From Pseudomonadota bacterium (lineage in GTDB: Bacteria; Desulfobacterota; JAPLJL01): a DNA stretch of 36,750 bases. The notes below the pieces were generated by a model. The model ran no database searches and was not told the DNA's origin. It worked only from the letters and a program-made list of their open reading frames with translations. The stretch covers positions 1-36,750 of the forward strand of contig JAPLJI010000183.1 in NCBI GenBank assembly GCA_026388655.1, written 5' to 3'. The position numbers were made by a program, and so were the translations under genes. Shown in pieces: positions 3,806-31,293 of the stretch (positions within the stretch are counted from its first letter, which is position 1; each line of letters opens with the position of its first letter).

Positions 3806-3932
3806 GTCATTCTGAGTCCCGCCAAAGGCAGGACGAAGAATCTATTCTTCAACCAATCCCGTCATTCTGAGGCGTAGCCGAAGAATCTCTCTTTTACCAA
3901 TCCCGTCATTCTGAGGCGCAGCCGAAGAATCT
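3806..3932. repeat. Three GTCATTCTGAG...GAAGAATCT repeat units
   Basis: Units at 3806-3843, 3861-3888 and 3904-3932 all start GTCATTCTGAG and end GAAGAATCT. Two share the middle GGCGTAGCC or GGCGCAGCC; the first has a longer middle. They are spaced by CCAATCCC. The reverse complement of the same unit (AGATTCTTCACTTCGTTCAGAATGAC, as words) occurs near 4083-4108, so the block is a set of facing inverted copies. Confidence 0.8.
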
Positions 3933-4014
3933 AGCCTTTGTTAGGAAAATTTAAAAATCAGATCCTTCGCGAACAGATTCACTTCGCTCACTGCATGGTT
4001 TATCCTGAGCGCCT

Positions 4015-4196
4015 TGAGATTCTTCACGGAGTTTACCCTGAACGCATTGAGATTCTTCACGGAGTTTACCCTGAACGCATTGAGATTCTTCACTTCGTTC
4101 AGAATGACAGGGAGTGAAGGGTTCAGAATGACAGGGAGTGAAGGGTTCGGGATGACAAAGAGCGAAGAACTCAGGATGACAAAGAATGAAGGGATC
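4015..4196. repeat. 33-bp and 24-bp tandem repeat tract
   Basis: A 33-bp unit beginning TGAGATTCTTCAC starts at 4015, 4048 and (partial) 4081. It is followed by about four degenerate 24-bp units of the type TTCAGAATGACAGGGAGTGA (about 4099-4196). Both unit lengths are multiples of three, which keeps a spurious repetitive reading frame open. There is no ribosome site or family match, so I do not call a gene. The rest of the 3669-4381 gap is also repeat-like, including the hairpin CAGGCTGAAGCCTG with GCGGCTACC tail at 4253-4274. Confidence 0.75.
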
Positions 4197-4381
4197 AGGC
4201 GCCGTCCTGAATGAAATGAAGGAATGACAAAGTATGTAATTTCTTTTTCACACAGGCTGAAGCCTGCGGCTACCGAGCTCTGCGAGCCCGACGTAGCCTT
4301 TGGCGAAGTCTGGGCCAGTCACCTTCTTTTTCTATCCTTTGACCTTTGACCTTTCACCTGTTTCCTGTTACTGGCTCCCAG

Positions 4382-4813
4382 CTACCCGATTTTTTCCCAA
4401 ACCAGTCTTCCCACCGCCTCGGTCTTTCCCACCCGGACCGGAGGGGTCCGGAAGACCACCTGGGTATCCGAGACCTCCGCGTAGCGGAACTGCTCTCCCC
4501 CCACCCAGTCCGGGATCACGGCGCCTTCCACGCGGGTGCTGAAGGTTCCATCTTTCTCGTTGACCTGGTAGGGGCCGAAATATGCGGTATATCCCTGGAA
4601 GGCGGCCTTGATTGCTTCCGGGGCCGGAGACTTGCCGGCGAGAAGCGGGCGGTCGCGGCGCATGATCTGGACGGACATGTAGCCGCTCTTGTCAATAATG
4701 GCGAGCCCGATGGGGTCCTTTCCCCACTGTTGAAAAACCTGCCCGTCCGCGCTTTTGAATTCGTAGGACACCAATCTCCAACAACCAAGAATTTTTTCGC
4801 TTAAGGTCGCCAT
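4382..4813 (-). CDS. Lipocalin-like domain protein
   Basis: A 143-residue cytosolic protein with no signal peptide. It begins LSEKILGCWRLVSYEF and continues with GLAIIDKSGYMSVQIMRRDRP, AYFGPYQVNE and FRTPPVRVG. This is the pattern of the lipocalin-like family (Pfam Lipocalin_5 type), small single-barrel proteins often found next to oxidoreductases or in secondary metabolism. The ligand is unknown. An AGGAG lies 7 nt before the ATG. It is the last minus-strand gene after the sulfur-relay cluster, but a 195-bp gap with a MITE-like element separates it from the tusA-like gene. A functional connection is therefore doubtful. Confidence 0.72.
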   Translation of the reverse strand: MATLSEKILGCWRLVSYEFKSADGQVFQQWGKDPIGLAIIDKSGYMSVQIMRRDRPLLAGKSPAPEAIKAAFQGYTAYFGPYQVNEKDGTFSTRVEGAVIPDWVGGEQFRYAEVSDTQVVFRTPPVRVGKTEAVGRLVWEKIG

Positions 4814-4861
4814 TTTTTCTCCTGGTCTCGTTCATATTCAATTTTTCTTGTTTTCATGCTT

Positions 4862-4955
4862 GTCATTCCCACGAAACTTGTCCTCGAGTGACTTAATCGG
4901 GGAGTGGGAATCCAGAAGAAAACAAAACTAGATTCCGCATCAAGTGCGGAATGAC
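4862..4955. repeat. MITE-like element with GTCATTCC / GGAATGAC ends
   Basis: It starts GTCATTCCCACG and ends with a perfect 8-bp hairpin ATTCCGCA-TCAAG-TGCGGAAT (4932-4952) followed by GAC. A relative with the same ends and architecture lies at 34498-34586. No coding capacity. Confidence 0.65.
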
Positions 4956-5008
4956 GGAAAAGATTGAGATTTCTTCGCTCAGGGCTCAGAATGACACCGG
5001 CAACTTAA

Positions 5009-5236
5009 TTATTTTTTCTTCACGTAACCCTTTAGGATTCCGCCTTCTTTTTTCATTTCCAAAAACTGCTCCCCGGTCATCCCGCACCAGGAAGGAAGGT
5101 CCTTCTCAAACCCGGGGTCGTCGGCAATCACCTCCAGGACCTCCCCGGATTTCATCACTTCCATCTCTTCCTTGGTTTTCACGATCGGCATCGGGCAGAA
5201 GAGACCGATGCAGTCGAGAGATTTATCTGATTTCAT
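5009..5236 (-). CDS. TusA/SirA-family sulfur carrier
   Basis: A 75-residue protein of the TusA (SirA-like) fold. It has the family signature LDCIGLFCPMPIVKTKE, in which Cys14 of CPMP is the persulfide-carrying residue, and a second block DDPGFEKDLPSWC with Cys51, as seen in many anaerobe TusA proteins. TusA proteins accept sulfane sulfur from desulfurases or thiotransferases and hand it to DsrE-type proteins or tRNA/cofactor thiolation. It lies 109 bp downstream of the dsrE-like gene in the same direction, consistent with that partner. The gap contains two small hairpins (GCCGAT/ATCGGC at 5263-5276 and GCCCGAT/ATCGGGC at 5289-5304). Family assignment is secure; the acceptor is not known. Confidence 0.9.
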   Translation of the reverse strand: MKSDKSLDCIGLFCPMPIVKTKEEMEVMKSGEVLEVIADDPGFEKDLPSWCGMTGEQFLEMKKEGGILKGYVKKK

Positions 5237-5345
5237 CTATTAAGAGAGGGTTTATGTAGTATGCCGATTCATCGGCGGTTTTTAAATCGCCCGATAAATC
5301 GGGCAGCTACAAGATATTCGGAAATATTAAATGCATTTTTCCGGT

Positions 5346-5813
5346 TTAAATGAAAAGGTTTATTTTCGATTCCCGGGCGATGGCCAGATAAGTGGCCGCC
5401 CCGGTAAAATCGTCCACGGTGTCGGCCAGCTGTTCCCGGCCCAGGCCCATCACCCCGCAGCTGGTGGTGCAGGCGATGTATTTAACCTTGAGCGCCCGGG
5501 CGGTTTTCATCAGGTCCTCGAGCGATGCCATCTTGGTTTTCTTCATCAGTTTTCTCATCATCCAGGGCCCCAGGCCCAGCATGTTCAGGCGGGAGAGCGG
5601 CAGGCCCCGGTTCATGAAATTCAGCATCTTCTGCATCAGGAGCTGGGTTTTGGAAAGGGAAAACTCGGATTTCTTCAGGAGGTTCAATCCCCAGAAAGTA
5701 AAAAAAATGGTCACGTCCATTCCGCTGGCGGCCGCGGTGGTGGCGAGCGTAAAAGCGGCCAAGGCCTTGTCGAACTCGCCGGAAAACAGGATGATGGTCA
5801 TCTTTTCGCTCAT
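5346..5813 (-). CDS. DsrE/DsrF-like sulfur-transfer protein
   Basis: A 155-residue protein of the DsrE-like family (DrsE_2 type). It has the N-terminal strand MTIILFSGEFDKALAAF, an amphipathic insertion LNMLGLGPWMMRKLMKK typical of this membrane-associated subgroup, and VKYIACTTSCGVMGL carrying Cys115 and Cys119, the likely persulfide site. Family members relay sulfane sulfur together with TusA; here the two are adjacent. Its ATG overlaps the stop of the upstream zinc-ribbon gene (ATGA, 5810-5813), implying translational coupling. The second cysteine four residues after the first could allow disulfide or metal chemistry. Function is inferred from family and context. Confidence 0.85.
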   Translation of the reverse strand: MSEKMTIILFSGEFDKALAAFTLATTAAASGMDVTIFFTFWGLNLLKKSEFSLSKTQLLMQKMLNFMNRGLPLSRLNMLGLGPWMMRKLMKKTKMASLEDLMKTARALKVKYIACTTSCGVMGLGREQLADTVDDFTGAATYLAIARESKINLFI

Positions 5814-6019
5814 CGGCAGGTCTCACAGGTCGGACAACTTTTCAAACCGCTCTGGTAAAGCCTCCCGCACTTTGGGCACTGTTTCAACTTGATCTCACAG
5901 GGCTGGCAAACCAATGTTTCCCGGCACTGCGAAACCAGTTCCTGCTCGCACATCGGGCACTTGCAGCTGATTTTCCCGCTGGTTTTGGTCTTTCTGGAGG
6001 TTTTTTTCGTTTTTTTCAC
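5810..6019 (-). CDS. 11-cysteine zinc-ribbon protein in sulfur cluster
   Basis: A 69-residue basic protein (N-terminus MKKTKKTSRKTKTSGK) followed by a cysteine-packed core: C19, C21, C24, C32, C38, C41, C48, C51, C62, C65, C68. At least three CxxC pairs (CQPC, CPKC, CPTC) look like stacked zinc ribbons, but a thiol-rich protein placed between iscU and dsrE could also carry iron-sulfur or persulfide sulfur. I recognise no named family. Its stop overlaps the dsrE start by four bases, so the two are probably made together. The upstream gap to iscU (135 bp) holds a word repeat of GACCGCTGACC type and a CTACC-tailed hairpin. The existence of the gene is well supported by the coupling and the Cys pattern. 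Confidence 0.75.
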   Translation of the reverse strand: MKKTKKTSRKTKTSGKISCKCPMCEQELVSQCRETLVCQPCEIKLKQCPKCGRLYQSGLKSCPTCETCR

Positions 6020-6125
6020 TGTCTTCCTCCTTCTTTAATGATCAACTTAGCGACCGCGGACCACCGACCGCTGACCGCCGTAAAAACAGGTAATAGGTGA
6101 TGGGTCATAGGTTAAGAAATTAAGC

Positions 6126-6148
6126 GCAACCTAAAGGTTGCGGCTACC
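6126..6148. repeat. Hairpin with GCGGCTACC tail
   Basis: GCAACCT pairs with AGGTTGC around AA and is followed by GGCTACC. It belongs to the CTACC-tail hairpin family of this window. It lies between iscU and the zinc-ribbon gene. Confidence 0.7.
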
Positions 6149-6154
6149 TGCCTT

Positions 6155-6553
6155 TTATTTTGAAATTTGAGCTTTGACATTTGGATTTTTTTTAAGATAG
6201 TCCTCAATCGCCTTGTGGAGCGCGTCCGCGCCCAGGTTGGAACAGTGCATTTTGTTCTTGGGCAGCCCCCCGAGCTGTTCCGCCACCATCTCCTTGGTCA
6301 TTTTCATGGCCTCATCGATCGTTTTGCCCTTGGCCATCTCCGAAACCATCGAGGAAACCGCGATCGCCGCCCCGCATCCGAAGGTCTGGAATTTAACATC
6401 CTCGATCACGTTATCCTTGACCTTGATATAAAAGGTCATCATATCCCCGCAAACCGGGTTGCCTATTTCTCCCACCCCGTCGGCATCCGGGATCTCTCCG
6501 ACATTGCGCGGGTTCTGGAAGTGGTCCATCACTTTTTCGGAATAGATCGGCAT
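6155..6553 (-). CDS. iscU: Iron-sulfur scaffold protein IscU
   Basis: A 132-residue IscU/NifU-N scaffold, the platform on which [2Fe-2S] clusters are built before transfer to apo-proteins. It begins YSEKVMDHFQNPRNVG and has the three conserved cysteines C35 (GNPVCGD, with the conserved Asp37), C60 (FGCGAA) and C104 with its preceding His (HCSNLGADAL). Length and ends are those of bacterial IscU of the non-proteobacterial type. It follows the iscS-like gene by 82 bp in the same orientation. Because that partner lacks the catalytic lysine, sulfur may reach this scaffold by another route (see the iscS entry). The gap upstream contains TTTCGGGTTTC word repeats. Confidence 0.93.
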   Translation of the reverse strand: MPIYSEKVMDHFQNPRNVGEIPDADGVGEIGNPVCGDMMTFYIKVKDNVIEDVKFQTFGCGAAIAVSSMVSEMAKGKTIDEAMKMTKEMVAEQLGGLPKNKMHCSNLGADALHKAIEDYLKKNPNVKAQISK

Positions 6554-6635
6554 CTTTATCCCTCCAGGTTAAACCCCATAGTTTCGGGTTTCAAGTTTCG
6601 GGTTTCTAGTTTGGAATTTGTGATTTGTGATTTGG

Positions 6636-7871
6636 TTATTGGTCATCATGTTCATGCTCATGCTCGTAATCCGTGCCCGGGCCGGCGGGCTTTCTCTCCC
6701 CGGTCTTTAAGAAATAGGCATAAAGGGGCGACATCTCCCGCAACTTTTTCACAATGGGGGGAAATTCGGAAAGGATGTAATCGATATCGGCATCGGTGTT
6801 GTTCCGGGACAGGGCGAAAAGGATGGAACCCTGCCCCACCGCCGGGTCAACCTGGATCGCGGTCAGGACATGCGACATTTTCAGGGCCTTGGAAGCGCAG
6901 GCCGAGCCGCTGGAAATACTAATCGCCTTCTGGTCCAGGAACAGGAGCATGGCCTCGCCCTCGATGAATTCCACCGAAAAATTCACGTTGCTGGGAAGGC
7001 GCCGGGTCGGGTGTCCGTTCAGATACACATACTCAATTTTCGCGGGGAGCTCGGCAATCAGGCGGCGGCTCAAACCGGACAGCTTCCGGTAATTATCCTC
7101 GCGCTCGCTTTTGGCTATCTCGCAGGCCTTGCCGAAGCCGACTATGCCCGGAAGATTCTCGGTCCCGGCCCGCCTCCCGTTTTCCTGGATGCCGCCGTCG
7201 ATCTGGGGGATTACCCTTACTCCCTTTTTTAAATATAGGGCGGCCGCCCCCGGAGGTCCGTAAATCGGCGTTCCGGAAAATGTTAAAAGGTCGACCCCCA
7301 GCGCCCCGACCTCCACCGGCAGTAATCCCGCCGTGCACACGGCATCGGTGTGAAAAAGAGCCCCCTTCGCGCGGGCGATCCGGGCGAATTCCTCGATGGG
7401 CTGGATGGTCCCGATCTCGGGATTGGCCTGCTGGATGGAAACCAGGACCGTGTCATCCCGGACGGATTTTTTCACTTCCTCCGGGGAGATCAACCCGGAA
7501 CCATCAACGGGAAGATGGGTAACCTCGAAACCCGCCTGGGCCAGCCGGCGGGCGGAATAAAGCACGGAAAAGTGCTCGATCCCGGAAACCACGATGTGTT
7601 TTCCTTTCTGACGGTAGGCTTCCGCCGTCCCTTTCACCGCCAGGTTGTTCGCTTCGGAACCGCAGGAAGTGAAATAAATCTCTTCCGCCCCGGCCCCGAT
7701 CAGGCCCGCCGCCCGCTCCCGGGCCTGGTCCAGGGCCTCCCGGGACCTGGACCCTAGGGTATGCATACTCTGCGCGTTCCCGTAATTCTCCCCCAGGTAG
7801 GGTAGCATCTCCTCCAAGACCCGGGGATCGATCCGCGTATTCGATAGATTATCCAGATATACTTCTCTCAT
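6636..7871 (-). CDS. IscS-like protein lacking the PLP-binding lysine
   Basis: A 411-residue class V aminotransferase-fold protein of the NifS/IscS family. Conserved parts: YLDNLSNT start, TSCGSEANNLA, H100 (IEHFSV), NPEIGTIQPI, D176 (HTDAV), RAGTENLPGIVGFGKA, and the sulfur-carrying C324 (SSGSACAS). The lysine that normally forms the PLP Schiff base (the HK of SGHK) is missing: the sequence reads FSGTPIYGPPG, with T201-P202 in place of His-Lys. The following GPKG is GPPG, and the Gln of HTDAVQ is Cys179. The C-terminal ending LREMSPLY matches my memory of Archaeoglobus fulgidus IscS, a relative reported to lack this lysine and desulfurase activity yet to bind IscU. The tail ends in an acidic, His-rich EHEHEHDD that may bind metal. 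GGAG lies 9 nt before the ATG. First gene of the sulfur-relay cluster. Confidence 0.9.
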   Translation of the reverse strand: MREVYLDNLSNTRIDPRVLEEMLPYLGENYGNAQSMHTLGSRSREALDQARERAAGLIGAGAEEIYFTSCGSEANNLAVKGTAEAYRQKGKHIVVSGIEHFSVLYSARRLAQAGFEVTHLPVDGSGLISPEEVKKSVRDDTVLVSIQQANPEIGTIQPIEEFARIARAKGALFHTDAVCTAGLLPVEVGALGVDLLTFSGTPIYGPPGAAALYLKKGVRVIPQIDGGIQENGRRAGTENLPGIVGFGKACEIAKSEREDNYRKLSGLSRRLIAELPAKIEYVYLNGHPTRRLPSNVNFSVEFIEGEAMLLFLDQKAISISSGSACASKALKMSHVLTAIQVDPAVGQGSILFALSRNNTDADIDYILSEFPPIVKKLREMSPLYAYFLKTGERKPAGPGTDYEHEHEHDDQ

Positions 7872-7926
7872 TACAGTCTGCTCCGGAAAACACCTGCTTT
7901 AAGCCGGGGTGATAAGTGTATATATA

Positions 7927-7955
7927 AGGATAGAAACCAGGGAGGTCCAAGTCAA
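7927..7955 (-). promoter_or_regulatory. Sigma70-type promoter of the iscS cluster
   Basis: On the minus strand TTGACT (7955-7950), 17-nt spacer, TATCCT (7932-7927), about 55 nt before the iscS-like ATG. Good consensus and spacing. No iscR gene is in the window, and I could not recognise an IscR-type operator. Confidence 0.55.
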
Positions 7956-8166
7956 GGAAAAAAGACCTTATCTTTTTTCCCTTTCGTAAAAATTGAGACT
8001 GTTTTCAGGGAGGAAATAAACAGGGTTGAGAAAATTATTCTTGCCTTTATGGACATTTCATTATATCCTCATAAAATGAATTAGAGTGGTAAAAACAGGG
8101 TAGGGAATATTAATCCAAATTCCTCAATTTGAGGAATTTGCCCAAAGGGCCGCCACCGCCTTGGCG

Positions 8167-8240
8167 GGGCGGGATTAACCCCGCCCACAATTCTGTAGGC
8201 GGTCTTACAGACGAAAATTGCCAATCTTGTGCAATTTTCG
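8167..8240. other. Two hairpins in the iscS/LysM intergenic region
   Basis: The 387-bp divergent gap (7872-8258) holds no gene. GGGCGGG (8167-8173) pairs with CCCGCCC (8180-8186), and CGAAAATTG (8212-8220) pairs with CAATTTTCG (8232-8240). The second hairpin ends just before the ribosome site of the LysM/SPOR gene, so it could affect its translation or be the end of a short upstream transcript. The rest is AT-rich with a small palindrome CCTCAATTTGAGG near 8124. Confidence 0.5.
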
Positions 8241-8258
8241 GGTTAAAAGGGGGATAAA

Positions 8259-8996
8259 ATGAACGAAAAGCAAAAGAAAACATTAATGATCGCCGGGATT
8301 GCCGCGGGTGCCCTGATTCTCATTCTGATCCTGCTTCTGGTCCTCTGGCCGAAAAAAGCCCCGGTCCGCCCCGCTCCCGCCCCGGTGGCGGCCGCGCCCA
8401 AGCCGGTTACCGCCCCGGTCGTTCCCGTGGCCCCGATCCAGGTAACCAAAACCATCAACTACGCGCATGACAACTACCGGACCAAGCCGGGAGACACCCT
8501 CTGGGACATCGCGAAAAGGCCGGAGGTTTACGGCAATCCCGAACTCTGGTGGTACCTGGTCGAACCCAACGAGGAAATAATTTCCTATATCTACCAGAAA
8601 CCCAGCGGACGCTGGATCGCCTACGTCCTCCCGGACAAAGACCTGATCATCCCGCGGGAAAAATACACCCCCCAGGAAAAAATCTCCCAGTACCAGAGAA
8701 ACCTGGTTACCTACGCGGTTGACCTGGGAACCTATTCCAGCCAGGCGGAGGCCAATGCGCTCCAGATTAAACTCCGCAACGACGTTTACAGCGCCTACAT
8801 TGCCCCGGCGGCCAACGGGGTTTCGCTGCGGATCGGTTTCTTCACCAACCGGAAACTGGCCGATTTCGTCGGCAACGAGGTGACCAAGAAATACCCGGAA
8901 CTTAAGAGTTTCCAGGTGGCCCAGCCCGGCCAGGAAGAAATCCAAAAATGCCGTGACGAGCTGAGAAAATTCTTCGCCAACAAGATGAAGCTTTAA
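8259..8996 (+). CDS. Membrane-anchored LysM/SPOR-type cell-wall protein
   Basis: A 245-residue protein: short cytoplasmic start, one transmembrane helix at residues 9-30, and an Ala/Pro-rich spacer (31-60). A LysM-like peptidoglycan-binding domain follows at about 72-132 (KPGDTLWDIAKRPEVYGNPELWWYLVE, read in parts, then DLIIPRE). The C-terminal part at about 150-220 (VTYAVDLGTYSSQAEANAL and SLRIGFFTNRKLADF) resembles a SPOR repeat, which binds denuded septal glycan. It therefore probably sits in the inner membrane and contacts peptidoglycan. A second, shorter LysM protein lies at 25107-25628. A GGGGG-type Shine-Dalgarno precedes the ATG. The SPOR assignment is less certain than the LysM. Confidence 0.8.
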   Translation: MNEKQKKTLMIAGIAAGALILILILLLVLWPKKAPVRPAPAPVAAAPKPVTAPVVPVAPIQVTKTINYAHDNYRTKPGDTLWDIAKRPEVYGNPELWWYLVEPNEEIISYIYQKPSGRWIAYVLPDKDLIIPREKYTPQEKISQYQRNLVTYAVDLGTYSSQAEANALQIKLRNDVYSAYIAPAANGVSLRIGFFTNRKLADFVGNEVTKKYPELKSFQVAQPGQEEIQKCRDELRKFFANKMKL

Positions 8997-23393: not shown

Positions 23394-24902
<1,509 letters not shown>

Positions 24903-24942
24903 TTAGGAAATCCCCATCCGTCAACCTCTATCTTACCCAACA

Positions 24943-25105
24943 AATTCCAATGACCAAGCACCAATAACCAATCAAATTCCAATCACCAAATTCCAATCAT
25001 CAAACAATTACCAAACATCAATGACCAAATAAAACAAATATAAATCTTTAAAAAACATATCTATATATTTCTCCCGGATTTGATTATTGGTCATTGGTTA
25101 TTTTG
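24943..25105. repeat. Inverted word-repeat element upstream of guaB
   Basis: The left arm is runs of AATTCCAATGACCAAGCACC and CAATAACCAATC, then CAATCACC, CAATCATC and CAATTACC words (about 24943-25030). A central AT-rich part follows. The right arm GATTTGATTATTGGTCATTG, then GTTATTTTG (about 25077-25105), is the complement of the left words. It lies between the guaB start and the LysM gene stop. Confidence 0.7.
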
Positions 25106-25106
25106 T

Positions 25107-25628
25107 TTAAATAGGCGGCGCCGGGACAAGAATGGTGATCCCCTCCGGCAGCTTGTTCGGATTGGGGAGAACCTTGCGGTTGGCTTCATAAATTAGTCTC
25201 CAGAGCCGGGCGTTCCCGTAATAATAAGCCGCGATCAGGTGCAGGTCTTCCCCGGCCAGGATTTTATGCTGGGCGGGGGTGACATGGGTAACCACGCCCA
25301 AAACCACGCCCCTTCCCCAGGGAACCTGCGGGAGAGGAGTCGCCGCGGCCGGGGCGGGGGCTTCACTCGGGGCCGGAGCCGGGGGAGCGTTGAGATCTTC
25401 CCCGGGCGCGGGCGCTTCCGGGGAGGAAACCGCGGGTGGTCCCGGTTCCGCCAGGGGAGGAAAATCCGGACCCGGGGAGGCCGGCTCGATCACGGCCCCG
25501 GAATCCGGAGCCGGGGAAACCGCCTCGGGTCCCACCTCGGTCTGGGCCCATACCCAGCCGGTCCAGATCCCGCCCAGGATCAGGCTCGAAGCCAATATTC
25601 CGATTCTGCCTTTTCTTTTTGAATTCAT
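25107..25628 (-). CDS. Exported LysM-type protein with Pro-rich linker
   Basis: A 173-residue protein: signal peptide (RIGILASSLILGGIWTGW, cleavage near VWAQ), then a roughly 75-residue Ala/Pro/Glu-rich low-complexity linker. A C-terminal LysM-like domain follows (HKILAGEDLHLIAAYYYGN, RLWRLIYEANRKVLPNPNKL, EGITILVPAPP). It resembles the LysM part of the 8259-8996 protein and probably binds peptidoglycan in the periplasm. GGAGG lies six bases before the ATG. It is the third gene of a minus-strand run with the lipoprotein and the cyclic-nucleotide-binding protein, 23 bp after the lipoprotein stop. The linker would span the periplasm; no catalytic domain is present. Confidence 0.8.
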   Translation of the reverse strand: MNSKRKGRIGILASSLILGGIWTGWVWAQTEVGPEAVSPAPDSGAVIEPASPGPDFPPLAEPGPPAVSSPEAPAPGEDLNAPPAPAPSEAPAPAAATPLPQVPWGRGVVLGVVTHVTPAQHKILAGEDLHLIAAYYYGNARLWRLIYEANRKVLPNPNKLPEGITILVPAPPI

Positions 25629-25651
25629 TGGTTACCTCCCCTTATTACTAT

Positions 25652-26308
25652 TTACTTAGACCGAAACCTCAGCTCTAAATTCACCGGCTCAGCCGGGGGT
25701 AGATTCTTCTGAAACTTCAAGCTGAATTCATGCGCTTTCTTCAGTCCCCCCCGGAAAAACACCATCCCCTGGGCGAAAGCCCGGGGTTCAATGGGTTGCG
25801 TACTCAAAGCCTTTAGAAATATCTCCGCGGGACATCGATCGGACCGGGAGATGGTATTATACCCGAGCGGAAAACCCGCCCCCAGGGCTTCCCTTCCGCC
25901 TTCGTACCCGTAAGCCAGGCCGAAGGTAAAAAAGGCGGAACGCCCCCCCTCACCTCTGGGTTCGAGGGCCGAAAGCTCCCGGGCGTCAACCGCCTGGTAT
26001 TGCCGGCCGCTTTCATCCTGCAAAATAAAATCCTCCGGCTGGATCGAAATCCTGCCCTCCGTCCTGTTCTCGATCCTCACCTCCAGGGGGATGAGGAGCT
26101 TATCCCAGTCCGGGGAGCAGTGTTCGAGCTCGCCCTGGCGGGCGGAGAAACCGAGAACCGGGCTCTCCGCCCTCGCGAAGCCCGCGCTGGCCGGGTTCCC
26201 CGGCCCGGCCGGGGTCAGGGGCAGAAGTTTCGGGGCGCACCCCCACCCACTTAAACCGAAAAGCAGAATCCCGCAAGCAACTACGAATTTTCCTGACCGG
26301 ATTTCCAT
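25652..26308 (-). CDS. Probable lipoprotein of unknown function
   Basis: A 218-residue protein with a hydrophobic signal (FVVACGILLFGLSGWGC) that ends in a Cys after Gly, a loose lipobox, suggesting lipid attachment at that Cys. The mature part has a beta-rich middle (LLIPLEVRIENRTEGRISIQ, then PEDFILQDESGRQY) that looks like an Ig-like, DUF4352-type fold, followed by a stretch on surface exposure (FAQGMVFFRGG) and a C-terminal strand ENLELRFRSK-like. I recognise no specific family. The start overlaps the end of the upstream cyclic-nucleotide-binding gene by 28 bp, and no good Shine-Dalgarno is visible, so translation is probably coupled to it. Confidence 0.6.
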   Translation of the reverse strand: MEIRSGKFVVACGILLFGLSGWGCAPKLLPLTPAGPGNPASAGFARAESPVLGFSARQGELEHCSPDWDKLLIPLEVRIENRTEGRISIQPEDFILQDESGRQYQAVDARELSALEPRGEGGRSAFFTFGLAYGYEGGREALGAGFPLGYNTISRSDRCPAEIFLKALSTQPIEPRAFAQGMVFFRGGLKKAHEFSLKFQKNLPPAEPVNLELRFRSK

Positions 26309-26754
26309 GCCAGATACTCGTCAATCTGGGCGAGTCCGCCCCGGGTCTTCTCACTCAAGTTTAGGGAAAGGGCCATAACCAGTCGAAGAGCCACCAGTGC
26401 GTCCGTCTTCAGGAATTCCTGAAAATCCTCCCGATCGATCGTCAAGAAATCGGTTTCCTCAACCGTCCGGGCCGAAACTTCCCGGGGTCCCTCAGACAGC
26501 AAAGCCATTTCCCCGAAATATTCTCCGCTTTGAATCGTAGCCAGCGACGTTTCCCCCACCCCGGGAATGTTCCGCGAGGTCTGCACCGAACCCTTTTTGA
26601 CAATAAAAAGGGTCTCTCCAATCATTCCTTCGATGAAGAGGGGGGTCCCGGCCGGGATTTTTTTCTCGGACACGATCTTGGAGATTACCGCAATTTCCTT
26701 GTCGCTGAAGTTCCGGAACAGCGGGCATTCTTTCAGGGGCTTGATCTTCGCCAT
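26281..26754 (-). CDS. Cyclic nucleotide-binding domain protein
   Basis: A 157-residue stand-alone cNMP-binding domain: LFRNFSDKEIAVISKIVSEK start, the beta-roll GTPLFIEGMIGETLFIVKKG, and the phosphate-binding cassette FGEMALLSEGPREVSART with the ligand residues E82 and R91. A helical end follows with no DNA-binding helix-turn-helix, so it is not a Crp-type regulator but a sensor module. It may control its operon partners (lipoprotein, LysM protein) or a protein elsewhere. AAGGGA lies upstream of the ATG. A CTAGA-N6-TCTAG inverted repeat at 26796-26811 lies about 40 bp upstream and could be an operator. Confidence 0.85.
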   Translation of the reverse strand: MAKIKPLKECPLFRNFSDKEIAVISKIVSEKKIPAGTPLFIEGMIGETLFIVKKGSVQTSRNIPGVGETSLATIQSGEYFGEMALLSEGPREVSARTVEETDFLTIDREDFQEFLKTDALVALRLVMALSLNLSEKTRGGLAQIDEYLAWKSGQENS

Positions 26755-26795
26755 GAATAATCCCTTGGTCTAGCTCTCAACGTTAATTTATATAA

Positions 26796-26811
26796 CTAGA
26801 CCCTATTCTAG
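26796..26811. promoter_or_regulatory. Inverted repeat upstream of the cNMP gene
   Basis: CTAGA (26796-26800) and TCTAG (26807-26811) separated by CCCTAT, in an AT-rich stretch before the gene. A possible operator; no regulator is identified. Confidence 0.3.
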
Positions 26812-26864
26812 CAGATTTCATTCCAGAGGAAATACTATTTAACCCCGCCTTTGAGGATGGTTTT

Positions 26865-27002
26865 TCACTCAGGTAAAAGCTCAAGGGGTGTTATGATCGC
26901 GGGGGTATTTAAACCCAAACGTCGATTGACGACACGGATATGCTCCTGTTTTCTGATATTGGCAAGATGTTCGCAATTCCAGGTCAACAAGTAATCAGTT
27001 AA
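26865..27002 (-). pseudogene. Decayed PIN-domain toxin, C-terminal remnant
   Basis: On the minus strand a frame reads TDYLLTWNCEHLANIRKQEH, then IRVVNRRLGLNTPAIITP and LELLPE before a TGA at 26867-26865. This is the recognisable C-terminal end of a PIN-domain toxin of the DYLLTWN...HIAN type with its closing P-(I/A)-I-x-TP-x-EL motif. Nothing upstream in frame gives a start or the N-terminal PIN half; the 5' part is missing and the next gene upstream is the complete PIN toxin ending at 27028. It is too short to function and is best seen as a fossil of a former vapC gene. Confidence 0.7.
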
Positions 27003-27027
27003 ATGCTTTGAGTTTTCGCAATTGTTG

Positions 27028-27447
27028 TTATCTTCGAGGAAGAATATCTACTGGATGGGAAAATCGATATTCTCGGAAGTGATGGTCGAAGGTTAAAACC
27101 TTTTCTATCTTGAATTTTTCGATTAGGGCAAAACTGGTGCAATCCACGAAGCTGAATCGTTTATCGGAATATTTAAGGAAGATGCCTTTTGCTTTATCTT
27201 CGATTTCTTCTGTTATCCTGATGATTTCGATTTTCGATTGGGGAAAACGCTTCATAAATTCAGCCGCTAATCGGTGCGCTGTTCGAATCATGATTAAAGT
27301 ATATGTTTCGGAGAGGACATAATCGGACGTACAAAAAGCCGCGCCGGATTCGGTCAGCTCCTTAATAACCTGGTTGGCGGCGGTATTTCCAGCGTCGCCC
27401 CGGTTAGCCAGGGCGCAAAAAAAGCCGGTATCGATGAAAGCTCTCAA
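27028..27447 (-). CDS. PIN-domain toxin (VapC-like) of TA module 1
   Basis: A 139-residue PIN ribonuclease. The acidic quartet is complete: D6 (FIDTGFF), E47 (VLSETYT), D102 (FVDCTSFA) and D121 (TFDHHF). Such toxins cleave RNA, often tRNA or rRNA, when freed from the antitoxin. It lies 3 bp after the DUF104-type antitoxin on the minus strand, forming a two-gene module. The group with FSFVDCTSFALIEK is commonly paired with AF2212-like antitoxins, as here. The gene seems intact. Downstream is the fossil PIN remnant. Confidence 0.87.
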   Translation of the reverse strand: MRAFIDTGFFCALANRGDAGNTAANQVIKELTESGAAFCTSDYVLSETYTLIMIRTAHRLAAEFMKRFPQSKIEIIRITEEIEDKAKGIFLKYSDKRFSFVDCTSFALIEKFKIEKVLTFDHHFREYRFSHPVDILPRR

Positions 27448-27450
27448 TGA

Positions 27451-27696
27451 TTAGGATTGGGATTTGGAATAAAGATGGTCGTCGTGTGATTGGGACAAAT
27501 CCGAAACCTTGCTTTGAAAAATATTGGCAATGGCGAGAATCGGATGGGCCGACTTTTTCGGTTTGCCTTTGACTTCTTTTTTGGCCGGTTTTTCCGTCAC
27601 AACGGTGATCTGGCAGGGCTGGTGCTCCTGCAAATGGAGCCTGCCCAAGGGTTTGAAGACCCCGCCTTCATAAATGGCCTTGGTTTTAATCGTCAT
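27451..27696 (-). CDS. DUF104 (AF2212-like) antitoxin of TA module 1
   Basis: An 81-residue protein beginning TIKTKAIYEGGVFKPLGRL, the signature of AF2212-like antitoxins. The typical LxEGxxVxV segment is represented by LHLQEHQPCQITVV. The C-terminal half is basic then polar and probably wraps the toxin. It precedes the PIN toxin by three bases. GGAGGAG is well spaced before the ATG. A promoter TTGAGG-N17-TAAAAT (27746-27718) lies upstream; its -35 falls inside the dispersed TA-island repeat, so the repeat may supply regulatory sequence. Confidence 0.85.
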   Translation of the reverse strand: MTIKTKAIYEGGVFKPLGRLHLQEHQPCQITVVTEKPAKKEVKGKPKKSAHPILAIANIFQSKVSDLSQSHDDHLYSKSQS

Positions 27697-27717
27697 TTTT
27701 CTTCTCCTCCCCAGAAT

Positions 27718-27746
27718 ATTTTATCTTATCTTCCCGCTTTCCTCAA
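27718..27746 (-). promoter_or_regulatory. Promoter of TA module 1, -35 inside the dispersed repeat
   Basis: TTGAGG (27746-27741), 17-nt spacer, TAAAAT (27723-27718) on the minus strand, about 22 nt before the antitoxin ATG. Confidence 0.45.
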
Positions 27747-27930
27747 ACCGTTTTTAGACTAAATAGGCCAGACAGATTTATCCTCCGAAGCCCATGTCCT
27801 TCGAAGCTCTTGTCCTTCGAAGCTTTAGCGAAGGAGGATCAGCGTAGGAGGATTGGCGTAGGAGGACCAAATAGACCAGATTGGCGGGCGAGAAAGAGTC
27901 GGGGAAGCCGAAGGGTTAATTATGTCCCCC
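27733..27930. repeat. TA-island repeat, copy A
   Basis: It begins CCCGCTTTCCTCAAACCG then TTTTTAGAC and AAATAGGCCAGACAG. It is interrupted by hairpin words TCCTCCGAAGC...TAGCGAAGGAGGA and GCGTAGGAGGA, resumes with AAATAGACCAGATTGGCGGG, and ends GGTTAATTATGTCCC. Copies B (28672) and C (29530) share both ends. Confidence 0.65.
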
Positions 27931-27953
27931 AAATTTCACGCTTGTTTGAGTGT

Positions 27954-28355
27954 TCAAACCCAGATTATTTCAATAAACGAAGACACTTTCTCAAAATCCG
28001 GATCGGAAGTGATCACCGCCGCGGAATGCTCCAAGGCCGAAGCCATGGTAAAAGCATCGGCATAGGAAATGGGATAATCCCCCTTTATCTCGGCCGCCCG
28101 AAAAACCAGGTCATCTTTAGCCGGTAAAATTTCAAACCCCAAACGATGAATATTGCCGAGGATTCCCAGCTTTTTCTCATTACCGAAATGCTTTTTGGTA
28201 ATGTAAATAATTTCTCCCAGGTTAATAATATTCAATAATTTACGGAGATTTTCTTCCTGGGCGATACGAAGAATCCTGATTACCTTCTCAAAACCTGGTT
28301 CTTTTTGGAATAACTTGAGCAAAGCTGAGCTGTCAAAAATCAGGGAGGCCTTCAT
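27954..28355 (-). CDS. PIN-domain toxin (VapC-like) of TA module 2
   Basis: A 133-residue PIN ribonuclease with D8 (IFDSSALLKL), E48 (NLGEIIY), D100 (SYADAFTMA) and D118 (TSDPDF), i.e. a complete active site. It is coupled to the AbrB-type antitoxin by a four-base ATGA overlap (28352-28355). The product would be an RNA-cleaving toxin neutralised by that partner. It is distinct in sequence from the PIN proteins of modules 1 and 3, so the modules are not recent duplicates. No oddities in reading frame. Confidence 0.88.
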   Translation of the reverse strand: MKASLIFDSSALLKLFQKEPGFEKVIRILRIAQEENLRKLLNIINLGEIIYITKKHFGNEKKLGILGNIHRLGFEILPAKDDLVFRAAEIKGDYPISYADAFTMASALEHSAAVITSDPDFEKVSSFIEIIWV

Positions 28356-28585
28356 CGGGGAAAATCTTGCTTCCTCTGTTTCAACAGTTCTTTGCTCAAG
28401 GAAGGCTTGGCGGGGAGATAACCGCAGGCCGCTTTAATCGGGTCTTTGACTTTGGGGATGAGATGGATTACCCCCCCGGAATCGAAAATCTTCAGCTCGG
28501 TTCCCGGACGAATGCTGTACTTCTCTCTTAATTCCTTGGGAATCACGATCTGGCCTTTGGCGTAAGCTTTGACTTTTTCGACCAT
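28352..28585 (-). CDS. AbrB/MazE-fold antitoxin of TA module 2
   Basis: A 77-residue swapped-hairpin DNA-binding antitoxin: KVKAYAKGQIVIPKELREKY, then SIRPGTELKIF, the SpoVT/AbrB signature (VapB type). The C-terminal part (KAACGYLPAKPSLSKELL) is the usual toxin-wrapping tail. AAGGAGG lies eight bases before the ATG. The promoter TTGATA-N18-TATACT lies upstream, and two GTATAAC direct repeats spaced two helical turns apart overlap its -10, which suggests autoregulation by the antitoxin. Confidence 0.88.
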   Translation of the reverse strand: MVEKVKAYAKGQIVIPKELREKYSIRPGTELKIFDSGGVIHLIPKVKDPIKAACGYLPAKPSLSKELLKQRKQDFPR

Positions 28586-28608
28586 AAAACCCGCCTCCTT
28601 AATTTACG

Positions 28609-28658
28609 GTATAACGAAAATTGATTTTAGTATAACCTAATGAGGGAGAAATTATCAA
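28609..28658 (-). promoter_or_regulatory. Promoter and putative autoregulatory operator of TA module 2
   Basis: Minus strand TTGATA (28658-28653), 18-nt spacer, TATACT (28634-28629). GTATAAC occurs at 28609-28615 and 28630-28636 (21 bp apart on one strand); the second copy overlaps the -10. Confidence 0.5.
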
Positions 28659-28671
28659 GAAAAATCCGATC

Positions 28672-28880
28672 TTCCCGCTTTCCTCAAACCGGTTTTTAGA
28701 TCAAATAGACGAGATAGACTAGATAGACTAGATAGACTAGATAGACAAAATAGACCAGACAGGCCAAAGGAACCAAACATTTTATTCTTTGCTCTTGGCT
28801 CCCTGCTCTATGCCCTTTGCCCTATGCGATTGATAGCGGGCGGGGAAGTATTTAGGAAGTCAATTTGATAATTATGTTCA
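28672..28880. repeat. TA-island repeat, copy B, with 9-bp tandem tract
   Basis: It starts TTCCCGCTTTCCTCAAACCG, then contains GATAGACTA repeated 3.8 times (28713-28746), AAATAGACCAGACAGG, GCTC/CCCT word repeats (28790-28830), and ends with GGGCGGGGAAG and GGAAGTCAATTTGATAATTA. It occupies most of the 28586-28945 gap. Confidence 0.65.
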
Positions 28881-28890
28881 ATTCGTCATA

Positions 28891-28919
28891 TTGCCCCGGT
28901 TCGTCACTAGTGGTACACT
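28891..28919 (+). promoter_or_regulatory. Promoter of the RelB/RelE-type module
   Basis: TTGCCC (28891-28896), 17-nt spacer, TACACT (28914-28919). AGGAGG follows at 28930-28935, ahead of the ATG at 28946. Confidence 0.5.
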
Positions 28920-28945
28920 GAACAAGAAAAGGAGGAAACATTAAT

Positions 28946-29176
28946 ATGCCTGCCAAAAACCCCAGGATCCACGTTGTTCTCGAAAAGCCGCTTTATCAAG
29001 CGGTTCAATCGCTGGCTCGGAAAGAACAAATATCCCTTTCTATGAAAATCCGGGATTTGGTCCGGGAGGCCCTCGAAATCGAAGAGGATCTGGCCCTGGC
29101 GGAGATCGCCCAGGAACGAGACAAAACTTTTAAAAGAGTTCAGGTGCTATCTCACAAGCAGGTTTGGGGCTCTTAG
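28946..29176 (+). CDS. Ribbon-helix-helix antitoxin of TA module 3
   Basis: A 76-residue protein with the short ribbon start NPRIHVVLEKPLYQAVQSLA, then SLSMKIRDLVREALEIEED, the ribbon-helix-helix pattern of RelB/ParD-like antitoxins. It ends in a charged helix (LALAEIAQERDKTFKRVQV). It precedes a RelE-fold toxin by 16 bp. AGGAGG lies upstream. This is the only TA module of the island on the plus strand. It probably represses its own promoter (28891-28919). Confidence 0.82.
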   Translation: MPAKNPRIHVVLEKPLYQAVQSLARKEQISLSMKIRDLVREALEIEEDLALAEIAQERDKTFKRVQVLSHKQVWGS

Positions 29177-29192
29177 TCTTCCCGACCTTTCA

Positions 29193-29477
29193 ATGGCTTA
29201 CACCCTCATATACCATCCGGCGGTGCGTGAGACGGATCTGCCGCAGATTAATCCGGATGTCAAAGCTCGGATCGCGCGGGCGATCGAATCACGACTTGCC
29301 ACAGAACCCCAAAAATATGGCCGGCCATTGCGAAAAACTCTAAAGGGCTATTGGAAACTTCGGGTTGGTGATTACCGGGTGATTTATAAAATTATTGGAG
29401 ATGACGTATGGATTCTGGGGATCATTCACCGAAGAATTGTCTATGAAAAAGCCGGGAAACGACTTAAAACGAATTAG
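29193..29477 (+). CDS. RelE/ParE-fold toxin of TA module 3
   Basis: A 94-residue protein with the RelE-like pattern: YTLIYHPAVRETDLPQINPD, the conserved GRPLRKTLKGYWKLRVGDYR, VIYKI and a C-terminal IHRRIVYEKAGKR. The R-V-G-D-Y-R-V-I-Y block is the family core. RelE members cut mRNA at the ribosome, ParE members poison gyrase; sequence alone does not decide which. It forms a pair with the upstream antitoxin. Following DNA is the third copy of the island repeat. Confidence 0.87.
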   Translation: MAYTLIYHPAVRETDLPQINPDVKARIARAIESRLATEPQKYGRPLRKTLKGYWKLRVGDYRVIYKIIGDDVWILGIIHRRIVYEKAGKRLKTN

Positions 29478-29529
29478 AAACCATGATTTTTTTCATTTTA
29501 AATCCTTTAAATTTTCTTCTGTTACATCG

Positions 29530-29645
29530 ATTTTCTCAAACCGTTTTTTAGACGAAATAGACCAGACAGACTAAATGGACTAAATGGACTAGATGGGCGG
29601 GGAAGAGTATGGGAAGTTAATTTTTCAATTCTGTCCCACAAATTG
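29530..29645. repeat. TA-island repeat, copy C
   Basis: It starts TTTTCTCAAACCG then TTTTTTAGAC, followed by AAATAGACCAGACAGAC, AAATGGACTAAATGGACTAG, GGGCGGGGAAG and GGAAGTTAATT, ending with CTGTCCCACAAATTG. It lies just downstream of the RelE-type toxin. Confidence 0.65.
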
Positions 29646-29657
29646 TATGAATTTGTT

Positions 29658-29792
29658 TCATTTCCCTGCGGCTTTTGCAGCTTCATCAATCCAATCGCCC
29701 ATATTTTTATAACCATCATCATCAACCCAATCATAAACAGGATAAGTGACTACGTTGCCACCTTTCTTGAAAAAAATTCCAGGGTCAAGTCT
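29658..29792 (-). pseudogene. Orphan gene fragment, unknown family
   Basis: On the minus strand an in-frame stretch without start codon reads LDPGIFFKKGGNVVTYPV, YDWVDDDGYKNMGDWIDEAA and KAAGK before a TGA (29660-29658). The composition is protein-like rather than repeat-like and it ends cleanly, so it looks like the 3' end of a lost gene. I do not recognise the family. Upstream the frame is closed by a TAA at 29795-29793. Confidence 0.4.
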
Positions 29793-29849
29793 TTACTTTG
29801 ACGTTTGGGGGTTCATAACTTCCTTGATAATCGCCTTCGTTTTGAGAAG

Positions 29850-29939
29850 CTAAACGTTATATGCCGGGCTTTTGTAGGATTCGAGGTTTTTATCGAAGCG
29901 TTCGACCAGGTCGAGGATTTGTTTAGGGGCGGAGGACAT
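29850..29939 (-). pseudogene. Truncated 5' end of an Eco57I-like restriction-methylase gene (copy 1)
   Basis: A 29-codon frame starting at ATG 29939: MSSAPKQILDLVERFDKN, then LESYKSPAYNV and a TAG. The pattern DLVERF..N.ESYKS..YN is the start of Eco57I-type (type IIG) restriction-modification proteins, which normally continue ETQLR. Here the frame ends at once. It follows the YgiT zinc-finger antitoxin on the same strand by 28 bp. A second copy lies at 30499-30603. Confidence 0.6.
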
Positions 29940-29967
29940 GATTGTTGTTAATGAACCATCAAAATCT

Positions 29968-30165
29968 CTAAACCACCCTTAATTCCAAAATCGGAACTTG
30001 AATTTTTTCCTCCACCTTTTCAGAAGAAATTGCCGTCTGTTCCATCTTCTTGACTACCTCAGCCTTAAAATACTTTTCTCCGCATACCTGACAGACGCCT
30101 GCCGGTACTCCTTTTAACACAACATCCCCTCCACAAAAATGGCATTTGTGATAAATTCTGCCCAT
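29968..30165 (-). CDS. YgiT-type zinc-finger antitoxin of TA module 4
   Basis: A 65-residue protein with two CxxC knuckles (CHFCGG and CQVCGEKYF) separated by VVLKGVPAGV, the N-terminal zinc domain of MqsA/YgiT-type antitoxins. The MqsA helix-turn-helix part is absent and a short tail (VEEKIQVPILELRVV) takes its place. The frame extends to a GTG at 30174, but AAGGAGG sits directly on that GTG and eight bases before the ATG at 30165, which I take as the start. It follows the DUF4258 toxin by 5 bp, so toxin precedes antitoxin, as in mqsRA. Confidence 0.82.
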   Translation of the reverse strand: MGRIYHKCHFCGGDVVLKGVPAGVCQVCGEKYFKAEVVKKMEQTAISSEKVEEKIQVPILELRVV

Positions 30166-30170
30166 TTTCC

Positions 30171-30485
30171 TCACCTCCTTCGGCGATAATTATCCATCCA
30201 CCTCCACGAATGGCGGGAAGGATCATATACCGTTATCAAAAAAAGTTCCTCGGGATCCGATTTGATCGAACAGACTGCATGAATAGGCCTCGACCCGGCG
30301 AACCCCACAACCAGACAGCTCGCGCCGCGACGATCTTGCGGATAGTCCTCAATAACCTCGCAATTCTTCAAAGCCGCCTCAAGTTCTTCGACTTTAATTT
30401 GATCCTCTTCCCGCTCCTTCTCTGCGTGCTGGGAAAATTCATACTTTCCCGCCCGAACTAAATCACGAACCTTACTTTGATCCAT
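30171..30485 (-). CDS. DUF4258 toxin of TA module 4
   Basis: A 104-residue protein of the DUF4258 family: KYEFSQHAEKEREEDQIKVE, then EVIEDYPQDRRGASCLVVGF, the conserved RPIHAVCSIK, and a C-terminal LFLITVYDPSRHSW with WMDNYRRRR. DUF4258 proteins are RelE/MqsR-like small toxins commonly encoded just before a YgiT zinc finger, exactly as here. The His in SQHAEKE and the C-terminal Tyr/Arg are the likely active residues (inference). Thirteen bases upstream lies the truncated restriction-methylase start, copy 2. Confidence 0.84.
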   Translation of the reverse strand: MDQSKVRDLVRAGKYEFSQHAEKEREEDQIKVEELEAALKNCEVIEDYPQDRRGASCLVVGFAGSRPIHAVCSIKSDPEELFLITVYDPSRHSWRWMDNYRRRR

Positions 30486-30498
30486 AAATATTATTTCC

Positions 30499-30603
30499 TT
30501 AAAGGATAATTATATAACTTTTTCCAACCAGTAACCCGCGGAATTCGATATTTTTATCGAATCGTTCGACCAGGTCGAGGATTTGCTTGGGGGCGGAGGA
30601 CAT
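30499..30603 (-). pseudogene. Truncated 5' end of an Eco57I-like restriction-methylase gene (copy 2)
   Basis: A 34-codon frame from ATG 30603: MSSAPKQILDLVERFDKN, then IEFRGLLVGKSYIIIL and a TAA. The first 18 residues are identical to copy 1 (29850-29939), while the DNA differs mostly at third codon positions. Similarity to type IIG proteins ends after NIE. It follows the PIN toxin of module 5 by 25 bp on the same strand. Confidence 0.6.
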
Positions 30604-30628
30604 GATCAATTAAAAATATTCACGGATT

Positions 30629-31000
30629 TTATTTTCCGACGAAAATTACGTCGGGGAGATTTTTAAAGTGAGGATCGGAGGAGGCCAACTGGCACCCCTC
30701 ATTGACGGCCGTGGAATAAACAATCGCGTCCGCCATCGGCAGCCCAAATTGCAGACTCAAATCCGCCGCGCTCAGCGTAATCCTCTCGTCGAAAGAAATA
30801 ATCCGGGTATTTTGCATCTGCGCCACCGCTTCCAGGGCATCCCTTTCCCCCCGCTCACGCTTGATTTTCTTGTAAACCTCGCAAATGACGACCGTCGGGG
30901 TGATAACCTGGGAAGGTTTTTCCAGGTACTCCGCGTATCGTTCGGCCAAAGGCCCGTCCAGAAAATACTCAATCCATCCGAAGGAGTCGACCAGGATCAC
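30629..31000 (-). CDS. PIN-domain toxin (VapC-like) of TA module 5
   Basis: A 123-residue PIN ribonuclease with D5 (LVDSFGWIEY), E41 (VICEVYK), D91 (PMADAIVY) and D109 (SSDPHF), a complete active site. The FGWIEYF and GLPMADAIVYSTA blocks are typical of VapC toxins paired with AbrB-type antitoxins. It overlaps the antitoxin gene by four bases (30997-31000). The gene is intact and different in sequence from the other two PIN toxins. Confidence 0.9.
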   Translation of the reverse strand: MILVDSFGWIEYFLDGPLAERYAEYLEKPSQVITPTVVICEVYKKIKRERGERDALEAVAQMQNTRIISFDERITLSAADLSLQFGLPMADAIVYSTAVNEGCQLASSDPHFKNLPDVIFVGK

Positions 31001-31206
31001 AACCGTTCCTCCTCCTCCCGGATTCCTCTGGCATCCATTCCCTTTATAAATCCCCGCAATTCCGGGATCTCCCGATTAGGAATCAAATGGATAATCCCGT
31101 CTTTGGCGATCGCGACCATTTTTTGGCCAGGCTTCAGATTAAGAGATTTTCGAACCTCTTTTGGAATAACCACTTGATATTTCGGAGATATTTTTACTTC
31201 ATTCAT
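30997..31206 (-). CDS. AbrB/MazE-fold antitoxin of TA module 5
   Basis: A 69-residue swapped-hairpin antitoxin: EVKISPKYQVVIPKEVRKSL, then NLKPGQKMVAIAKDGIIHLI, with a C-terminal toxin-binding tail. The frame has ATGs at 31212 and 31206; GGAGG abuts the first and lies six bases from the second, so I choose 31206. A strong promoter (TTGACA-N17-GAAAAT) lies upstream, with ATCGATC at 31234-31240 and 31286-31292 flanking it, possible antitoxin operators. Confidence 0.88.
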   Translation of the reverse strand: MNEVKISPKYQVVIPKEVRKSLNLKPGQKMVAIAKDGIIHLIPNREIPELRGFIKGMDARGIREEEERL

Positions 31207-31255
31207 AATCATCCTCCATAAAACATAATAATGATCGATCTATATATTGTTTTAC

Positions 31256-31284: not shown

Positions 31285-31293
31285 CATCGATCA

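Follow-up and report, generated by a model that had tools for sequence, protein, structure and literature searches.

Cysteine desulfurase is usually regarded as the starting point of iron-sulfur (Fe-S) cluster assembly. The IscS of Archaeoglobus fulgidus, which has the same lysine lesion as the protein considered here, shows no desulfurase activity and contributes a cysteine ligand to the IscU-bound cluster (PMC7585200). Furthermore, IscU of Escherichia coli dispenses with IscS when H2S is supplied anaerobically (PMC13015791), SMS uses sulfide (PMC12192291), and E. coli IscS is bound by both TusA and IscU (PMC11302665; PMC2854127). Here we describe a cluster of five genes encoding a lysine-less IscS, IscU, a small zinc-ribbon protein, DsrE2 and TusA. 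The cluster lies in a window of 36,750 nucleotides, i.e., the whole stretch of DNA analyzed (contig JAPLJI010000183.1 of the Pseudomonadota bacterium assembly GCA_026388655.1, placed in Desulfobacterota, JAPLJL01, by GTDB). The window is one contig of an assembly of 3.56 Mb and 94.4% completeness (G000; genomes and loci are designated by our own G and L numbers).

The lysine-less IscS and its gene neighborhood

That this IscS lacks the catalytic lysine had been claimed from the letters of the DNA alone (hereafter, the sequence-only reading) and is confirmed by alignment. The pyridoxal phosphate (PLP)-lysine motif SGHKxYGPKG reads SGTPIYGPPG in the window protein, with Pro202 at the lysine position. 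The substrate arginine of the GSxRF motif is replaced as well (GSILF, Leu351), as is the Gln that follows DAV (Cys179); in IscS/NifS structures, these two residues act at the substrate carboxylate and the PLP ring, respectively. The persulfide cysteine is kept, namely, Cys325 in SGSACAS (motif SGSACxS). The protein scores under the NCBIfam equivalog cut-offs for both NifS (468.5 vs 530.75 bits) and IscS (359.9 vs 643.2 bits). Of the residues by which Group I cysteine desulfurases are recognized, the window IscS, judged by its alignment, lacks the PLP lysine and the arginine and has the persulfide cysteine.

The same combination of losses and retention is found across the family. We compared IscS homologues from two samples, the best 30 loci from 59 genomes called relatives and the best 80 of 586 confirmed matches of a named genome scan, the latter being biased toward lysine-less proteins by its query, an alignment of lysine-less IscS. 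With a duplicate of the window (L001) and a SufS-type sequence (L003) dropped, 114 rows were left, 77 without the lysine and 37 with it. The substrate Arg occurs in none of the 76 readable lysine-less rows vs 36 of the 37 lysine-bearing ones, and the PLP-ring Gln in 6/77 vs 35/37, whereas the persulfide Cys is present in every readable row of both groups (76/76 and 37/37). A decaying pseudogene would not be expected to preserve the Cys loop and an uninterrupted frame across several phyla, and so the lysine-less protein appears to be under selection for something besides desulfuration. In four genomes (G045, G008, G025 and G034), there is also a second, different lysine-less IscS paralogue (L159, L162, L164 and L166).

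The genes adjacent to IscS differ between the two groups. Neighbors were counted as same-strand matches within 3 kb of IscS, with kinship uncorrected, and loci from the genome search have flanks of ~1.5 kb, so that these counts are lower bounds. TusA or DsrE2 is a neighbor of 45 of the 77 lysine-less genes vs 2 of the 37 lysine-bearing ones (Fisher p 1.4e-8, likewise uncorrected for kinship); taken separately, TusA is found next to 42 and 2, and DsrE2 next to 24 and 0, respectively. The zinc ribbon accompanies 28/77 vs 1/37, and IscU 54/77 vs 21/37. Among loci whose flanks extend 1.2 kb or more upstream and 2.3 kb or more downstream, TusA is present in 26/42 lysine-less vs 1/13 lysine-bearing loci, and DsrE2 in 13/42 vs 0/13. 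All five genes come together in 13 of the 77 lysine-less loci, from several phyla, and in none of the 37 lysine-bearing loci. In nine of these 13, including the window, the genes are separate and stand in the window order; in three (L010, L012 and L073), the zinc ribbon is part of the IscU frame, and one (L043) is rearranged. Carriers of the module belong to Dehalococcoidia, Deltaproteobacteria, Geothermincola, Elusimicrobia and Clostridia, as well as to the phylum of the window. A genome of the same genus, G002, retains the IscS-IscU-zinc ribbon-DsrE series, and its IscS is the nearest to that of the window (90% identity), followed by those of a Desantisbacteria metagenome-assembled genome (MAG; 69%) and an Elusimicrobia MAG (67%). 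The retention of the gene order in G002, together with its recurrence in distant phyla, indicates that the arrangement is beyond chance.

A second sampling covered 80 genomes of the class to which G061 belongs (Dehalococcoidia) and, with the L040 IscS as the query, yielded 29 further loci with 1.5 kb flanks. Among its 14 lysine-less loci, two of which (L195 and L203) repeat genomes from the first survey (G077 and G078), IscU and the zinc ribbon are each found in 13, DsrE2 in 11 (with a weak match in L203) and TusA in nine; eight loci contain all five genes. Among the 15 lysine-bearing loci, IscU adjoins seven, and not one has the zinc ribbon, DsrE2 or TusA alongside. The co-occurrence with IscU, DsrE2, TusA and the zinc ribbon, which the sequence-only reading had named as a check, holds across phyla and is specific to IscS without the lysine.

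The window IscU retains the cluster cysteines Cys35, Cys60 and Cys104 with the nearby Asp (each conserved in at least 54 of the 55 homologues) and passes the clostridial NifU equivalog cut-off (206.6 vs 187.9 bits). Its best PDB match is 4eb5_C, the IscU of A. fulgidus from a structure determined together with the lysine-less IscS. IscU and the zinc ribbon are encoded in one open reading frame (ORF) at nine loci (L010, L012, L022, L026, L062, L070, L073, L080 and L087, the last fused gene being located on the opposite strand, ~4 kb away from IscS) and share a frame also in the second lysine-less locus of G068 (L145). Fused homologues carry the zinc ribbon at the IscU C-terminus; the zinc ribbon belongs with IscU. 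In an alignment of 21 zinc ribbons, eight Cys or Pro columns are invariant. A fold model of the zinc ribbon proved too weak for use (mean pLDDT 71, pTM 0.46; its closest PDB structures, LysW-type ribbons, scored E 0.17 or worse), and a triple IscS-IscU-zinc ribbon fusion at L080 was rejected, its long frame comprising IscU and the zinc ribbon, with IscS in another frame.

At the position of DsrE2 Cys115, 21 of 22 cluster homologues have a Cys and the remaining one is cut off by a contig end, and the cysteine of the TusA CPMP motif (CPxP, Cys14) is kept in 41 of 42. Both window proteins score under the respective equivalog cut-offs, DsrE2 for NF047629, the DsrE2 sulfur carrier (84.5 vs 210 bits), and TusA for PRK00299 (57.7 vs 78 bits).

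A quick tree of 134 rows was built from an alignment in which the trait columns were masked. It places 75 lysine-less rows, together with L088, on one side of a single (starred) branch, and sets A. fulgidus IscS apart with L092 and L028, both of which have TusA just upstream. The resulting hint of convergent lysine loss in A. fulgidus and bacteria was dropped: when the lysine-less rows are all constrained to one clade with A. fulgidus IscS, the tree is better and is not rejected (p-AU 0.896; the two L110 rows omitted, L088 counted in). A single origin of lysine-less IscS, including that of A. fulgidus, is possible.

Three loci of this family have unusual features. L088 (7001-8149), 1.4 kb from TusA, encodes an IscS with the lysine and without the substrate Arg, a possible reversion of the lysine site. 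On a Euryarchaeota contig, L110 (3090-6360) comprises a lysine-less IscS, TusA, a lysine-bearing IscS and two IscU genes in a row, possibly an intermediate arrangement; its lysine-less IscS has Arg at the lysine site and Gln in place of the conserved His of EHxxV. The C-terminal tail of the window IscS is His/Glu-rich (EHEHEHDDQ, 6636-6700) and could bind metal; a His-rich linker resembling it sits in the IscU-zinc ribbon of L026.

Sulfur supply and alternative explanations

The cluster IscU is the sole NifU_N match in the window genome (94.4% complete), where a search for SufB/D, positive in 14/14 control genomes, found none. Among 25 genomes examined together, a SufB match is absent in 16, and eight (G000, G061, G062, G069, G071, G072, G073 and G075) combine the absence of SufB with a single NifU_N match above 100 bits, namely, the IscU next to the lysine-less IscS. 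The assemblies are incomplete, and single genomes prove little; the sole-scaffold pattern repeats across genomes.

We propose that the module is an IscS-IscU-type Fe-S assembly system in which IscS would have given up cysteine desulfuration and sulfur would come from sulfane-sulfur carriers, a reading of the gene content that we hold at even odds. The lysine-less IscS would serve as a dimeric platform, and its Cys325 would either take sulfane sulfur from TusA or act as a cluster ligand. TusA, in turn, might be loaded by DsrE2 or by the persulfides and polysulfides of a sulfidic anaerobe, the flow of sulfur through TusA being reversed relative to E. coli or routed to IscU. The cluster would form on Cys35/60/104 of IscU, with the zinc ribbon as an IscU partner, perhaps, at a guess, for the delivery of iron or electrons. 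Because TusA and DsrE2 specifically accompany the lysine-less IscS, we prefer a persulfide relay over sulfide alone or supply in trans. The proposal in its broadest form is that of a widespread, undescribed Fe-S assembly system, present in anaerobic bacteria and in certain archaea, whose pseudo-desulfurase IscS and IscU, with an IscU-specific zinc ribbon, would be fed by a DsrE2-TusA persulfide relay, without cysteine desulfuration, and which would be the sole route in some organisms; to this we would assign a probability of roughly 0.4. The cysteine-independent route had already been put forward in the sequence-only reading, and the loss of the lysine, the family-wide loss of the Arg and the co-occurrence with carriers speak for it, although the idea is partly preceded by A. 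fulgidus IscS.

Several observations weigh against this proposal. Neither TusA nor DsrE2 lies within 3 kb at 32 of the 77 lysine-less loci, partly on account of short flanks, and in Endomicrobia four of five loci consist of IscS-IscU-zinc ribbon with no TusA or DsrE2 nearby, the fifth (L068) having IscU alone. A kinship-controlled test of the TusA link contained 2 to 4 independent pairs and had no power. Two lysine-bearing genes are also near TusA, one of them (L088) falling inside the lysine-less clade and the other (L110) with TusA between a lysine-less and a lysine-bearing IscS. Finally, a functional desulfurase in the vicinity was something that the sequence-only reading counted against itself, and on this point the outcome is mixed: there is none near the cluster, but a lysine-bearing IscS with all catalytic residues (L002) is encoded beside mnmA on another contig of the same genome. 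A lysine-bearing IscS- or SufS-type gene is found also in 11 of 12 further genomes of the same phylum that have the lysine-less gene and from which additional copies were compared (for the twelfth, G034, the comparison covers all copies but one). With lysine-bearing desulfurases in these genomes, cysteine could still supply sulfur in trans.

Other genomes point in the opposite direction. No lysine-bearing IscS or SufS was found in the MAGs G060, G061, G065 and G068 with a query that detects SufS types elsewhere, and an Aminotran_5 search of the first three added only other aminotransferases, as judged from the translations read, and weak matches. The module is complete in all four (L039, L040, L046 and L073). 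In G144, reading of translations covered the single IscS-like match, which is lysine-less; the best of the remaining Aminotran_5 matches scores 132.9 bits. By their predicted gene content, genomes without a lysine-bearing IscS or SufS favor cysteine independence, to the extent that MAGs can carry the point. Two other candidates for desulfurase-free genomes were set aside, G062, where masked sequence cuts into another IscS after its N-terminus, and G075, which has a SufS-type gene with the lysine.

The alternative that best withstands these data is assembly of the A. fulgidus type, with free sulfide as the source, IscS as a structural partner contributing a Cys ligand, and a separate sulfur-carrier task for TusA and DsrE2. 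This explanation would account for the lysine-less loci that have IscU and no TusA or DsrE2 nearby, and agrees with the best PDB match of the window IscU and with the A. fulgidus IscS itself, which has Asp at the lysine site and no Arg. Sulfide is, furthermore, enough for E. coli IscU without IscS under anaerobic conditions (PMC13015791) and for SMS (PMC12192291). What it leaves unexplained is the preference of TusA and DsrE2 for lysine-less over lysine-bearing IscS in two samplings and the presence of TusA just upstream in L092 and L028, the relatives of the A. fulgidus gene; we regard it as a serious, albeit unlikely, alternative.

E. coli IscS passes sulfur to TusA, and a division of labor is conceivable in which persulfide, generated from cysteine by the lysine-bearing IscS next to mnmA, would reach the lysine-less IscS-IscU pair by way of TusA. 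L002 has the residues for such a role, and the cluster tusA encodes the only plain TusA of the window genome, the second match being inside a 203-aa frame; the binding of TusA to E. coli IscS (PMC11302665) is compatible with this route as well. Nevertheless, only lysine-less IscS is seen in G060, G061, G065, G068 and G144, with the module complete in the first four (MAGs, completeness not given), and we regard this division of labor as unlikely.

TusA and DsrE2 are used in thio-tRNA and cofactor sulfur routes elsewhere. The module might instead load sulfur on some other target, be it thio-tRNA, the molybdenum cofactor or a specialized metal cofactor, and IscU would then carry sulfur or metal. 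Such a role would be in keeping with the service of TusA in molybdenum cofactor and tRNA routes (PMC11302665) but is highly improbable, given the near-invariance of the IscU cluster cysteines and Asp and the eight genomes with this clear IscU only and no SufB; barring genes lost from the assemblies, general Fe-S assembly has to rely on it there.

Layout of the locus and other features of the window

The order, strand and coordinates of the five minus-strand ORFs, checked by ORF calls and Pfam matches, are those given in the sequence-only reading, which was also accurate on the ATGA coupling of the zinc-ribbon and dsrE genes and on the 11 Cys of the zinc-ribbon protein (Table 1). The promoter in front of iscS is less well supported, being a consensus-like site with 9/12 positions matching; there are seven promoter-like sites in 4800-8260 vs 2.6 (standard deviation 1.8) in shuffled sequences. 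By ORF coordinates, the IscS/IscU, IscU/zinc ribbon and DsrE/TusA gaps span 82, 135 and 109 bases, respectively. Given these three gaps and the hairpin between iscU and the zinc-ribbon gene, co-transcription of all five genes stays putative. A search of the cluster with Rfam at the gathering threshold found no RNA elements.

Table 1. Coordinates of the genes and sites of the cluster within the window
Feature	Position	Strand	Remarks
iscS-like gene	6636..7871	-	411 aa; Aminotran_5 235.9 bits, over the Pfam gathering cut-off
iscU	6155..6553	-	132 aa; NifU_N 170.5 bits, cut-off 22
Double zinc-ribbon gene	5810..6019	-	69 aa, 11 Cys, GTG start; DZR match weak, under cut-off
dsrE2	5346..5813	-	155 aa; PF13686 (DrsE_2) 160.6 bits vs cut-off 25
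tusA	5009..5236	-	75 aa; PF01206 86.8 bits vs cut-off 28.6
ATGA overlap, zinc-ribbon stop/dsrE2 start	5810..5813	-	Read from the sequence
Sigma-70-like promoter TTGACT-17-TATCCT, 5' of iscS	7927..7955	-	Consensus match only, 9/12
Terminator-like hairpin in iscU/zinc-ribbon gap	6125..6142	-	Consensus match only
Pro202 codon (PLP-lysine position)	7266..7268	-	Sequence and alignment
Cys325 codon (persulfide cysteine kept)	6897..6899	-	Sequence and alignment

Elsewhere in the window, tandem arrays of three kinds (unit lengths 44, 33 and 24 bases) lie side by side at 3834-4199, with translated repeats such as YPERIEILH. The segment 27028-31000 has a low GC content (0.43-0.46 vs 0.51-0.64 in the rest of the window) and contains small genes resembling PIN-domain toxins (27028-27447, 27954-28355 and 30629-31000, minus strand) and a RelE-like gene (29193-29477, plus strand); judged by eye from the translations, it reads as a toxin-antitoxin island. 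In the ORF-poor stretch 24900-31800, a search for rRNA with Rfam at gathering found none.

Comparison with known systems

Like the module described here, the A. fulgidus IscS-IscU pair (PDB 4eb5, 4eb7 and 4hvk; lysine-restored mutant 4r5f) combines the loss of the PLP lysine and the Arg with a retained Cys loop and an IscU partner. The two IscS proteins are 47% identical and differ at the lysine site, with Asp there and Pro/Gln here, and the available portion of the A. fulgidus account names no TusA, DsrE2 or zinc ribbon (PMC7585200). In Methanosarcina acetivorans, IscS1, also without the catalytic lysine, is paired with IscU1; according to the same source, this pair is uncharacterized and, unlike the one in the window, clustered with four genes of unknown function (PMC7585200). 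The Minimal Iron-Sulfur system (MIS, MisS-MisU; Garcia et al., 2022) resembles the module in being built on a minimal IscS-IscU pair, without carriers (PMC12192291; PMC12442378), but as described there it includes a working cysteine desulfurase, whereas here the residues are lost and sulfur-carrier genes are added. The E. coli ISC system with TusA shares with the module the pairing of IscS with TusA and IscU, both of which bind it (PMC11302665; PMC2854127). In E. coli, however, the desulfurase is active and sulfur flows from IscS to TusA. The tusA gene of E. coli lies outside the isc operon.

At the level of titles and listings, one library of open-access papers yielded no account of a module of IscS, DsrE2, TusA and a zinc ribbon, of how broadly lysine-less IscS is distributed in bacteria, or of the zinc ribbon linked to IscU; the available portion of PMC12803347 has nothing on this module. 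With a conserved module of this kind, the old question of whether Fe-S clusters can draw on sulfur other than that of cysteine becomes open to direct test, with candidate proteins at hand and a bearing on the way anaerobes make clusters in sulfidic settings and, perhaps, on early life. Compared with the known systems, in which lysine-less IscS and minimal IscS-IscU pairs have already been described, the new part appears to be the five-gene module with its sulfur carriers and zinc ribbon.

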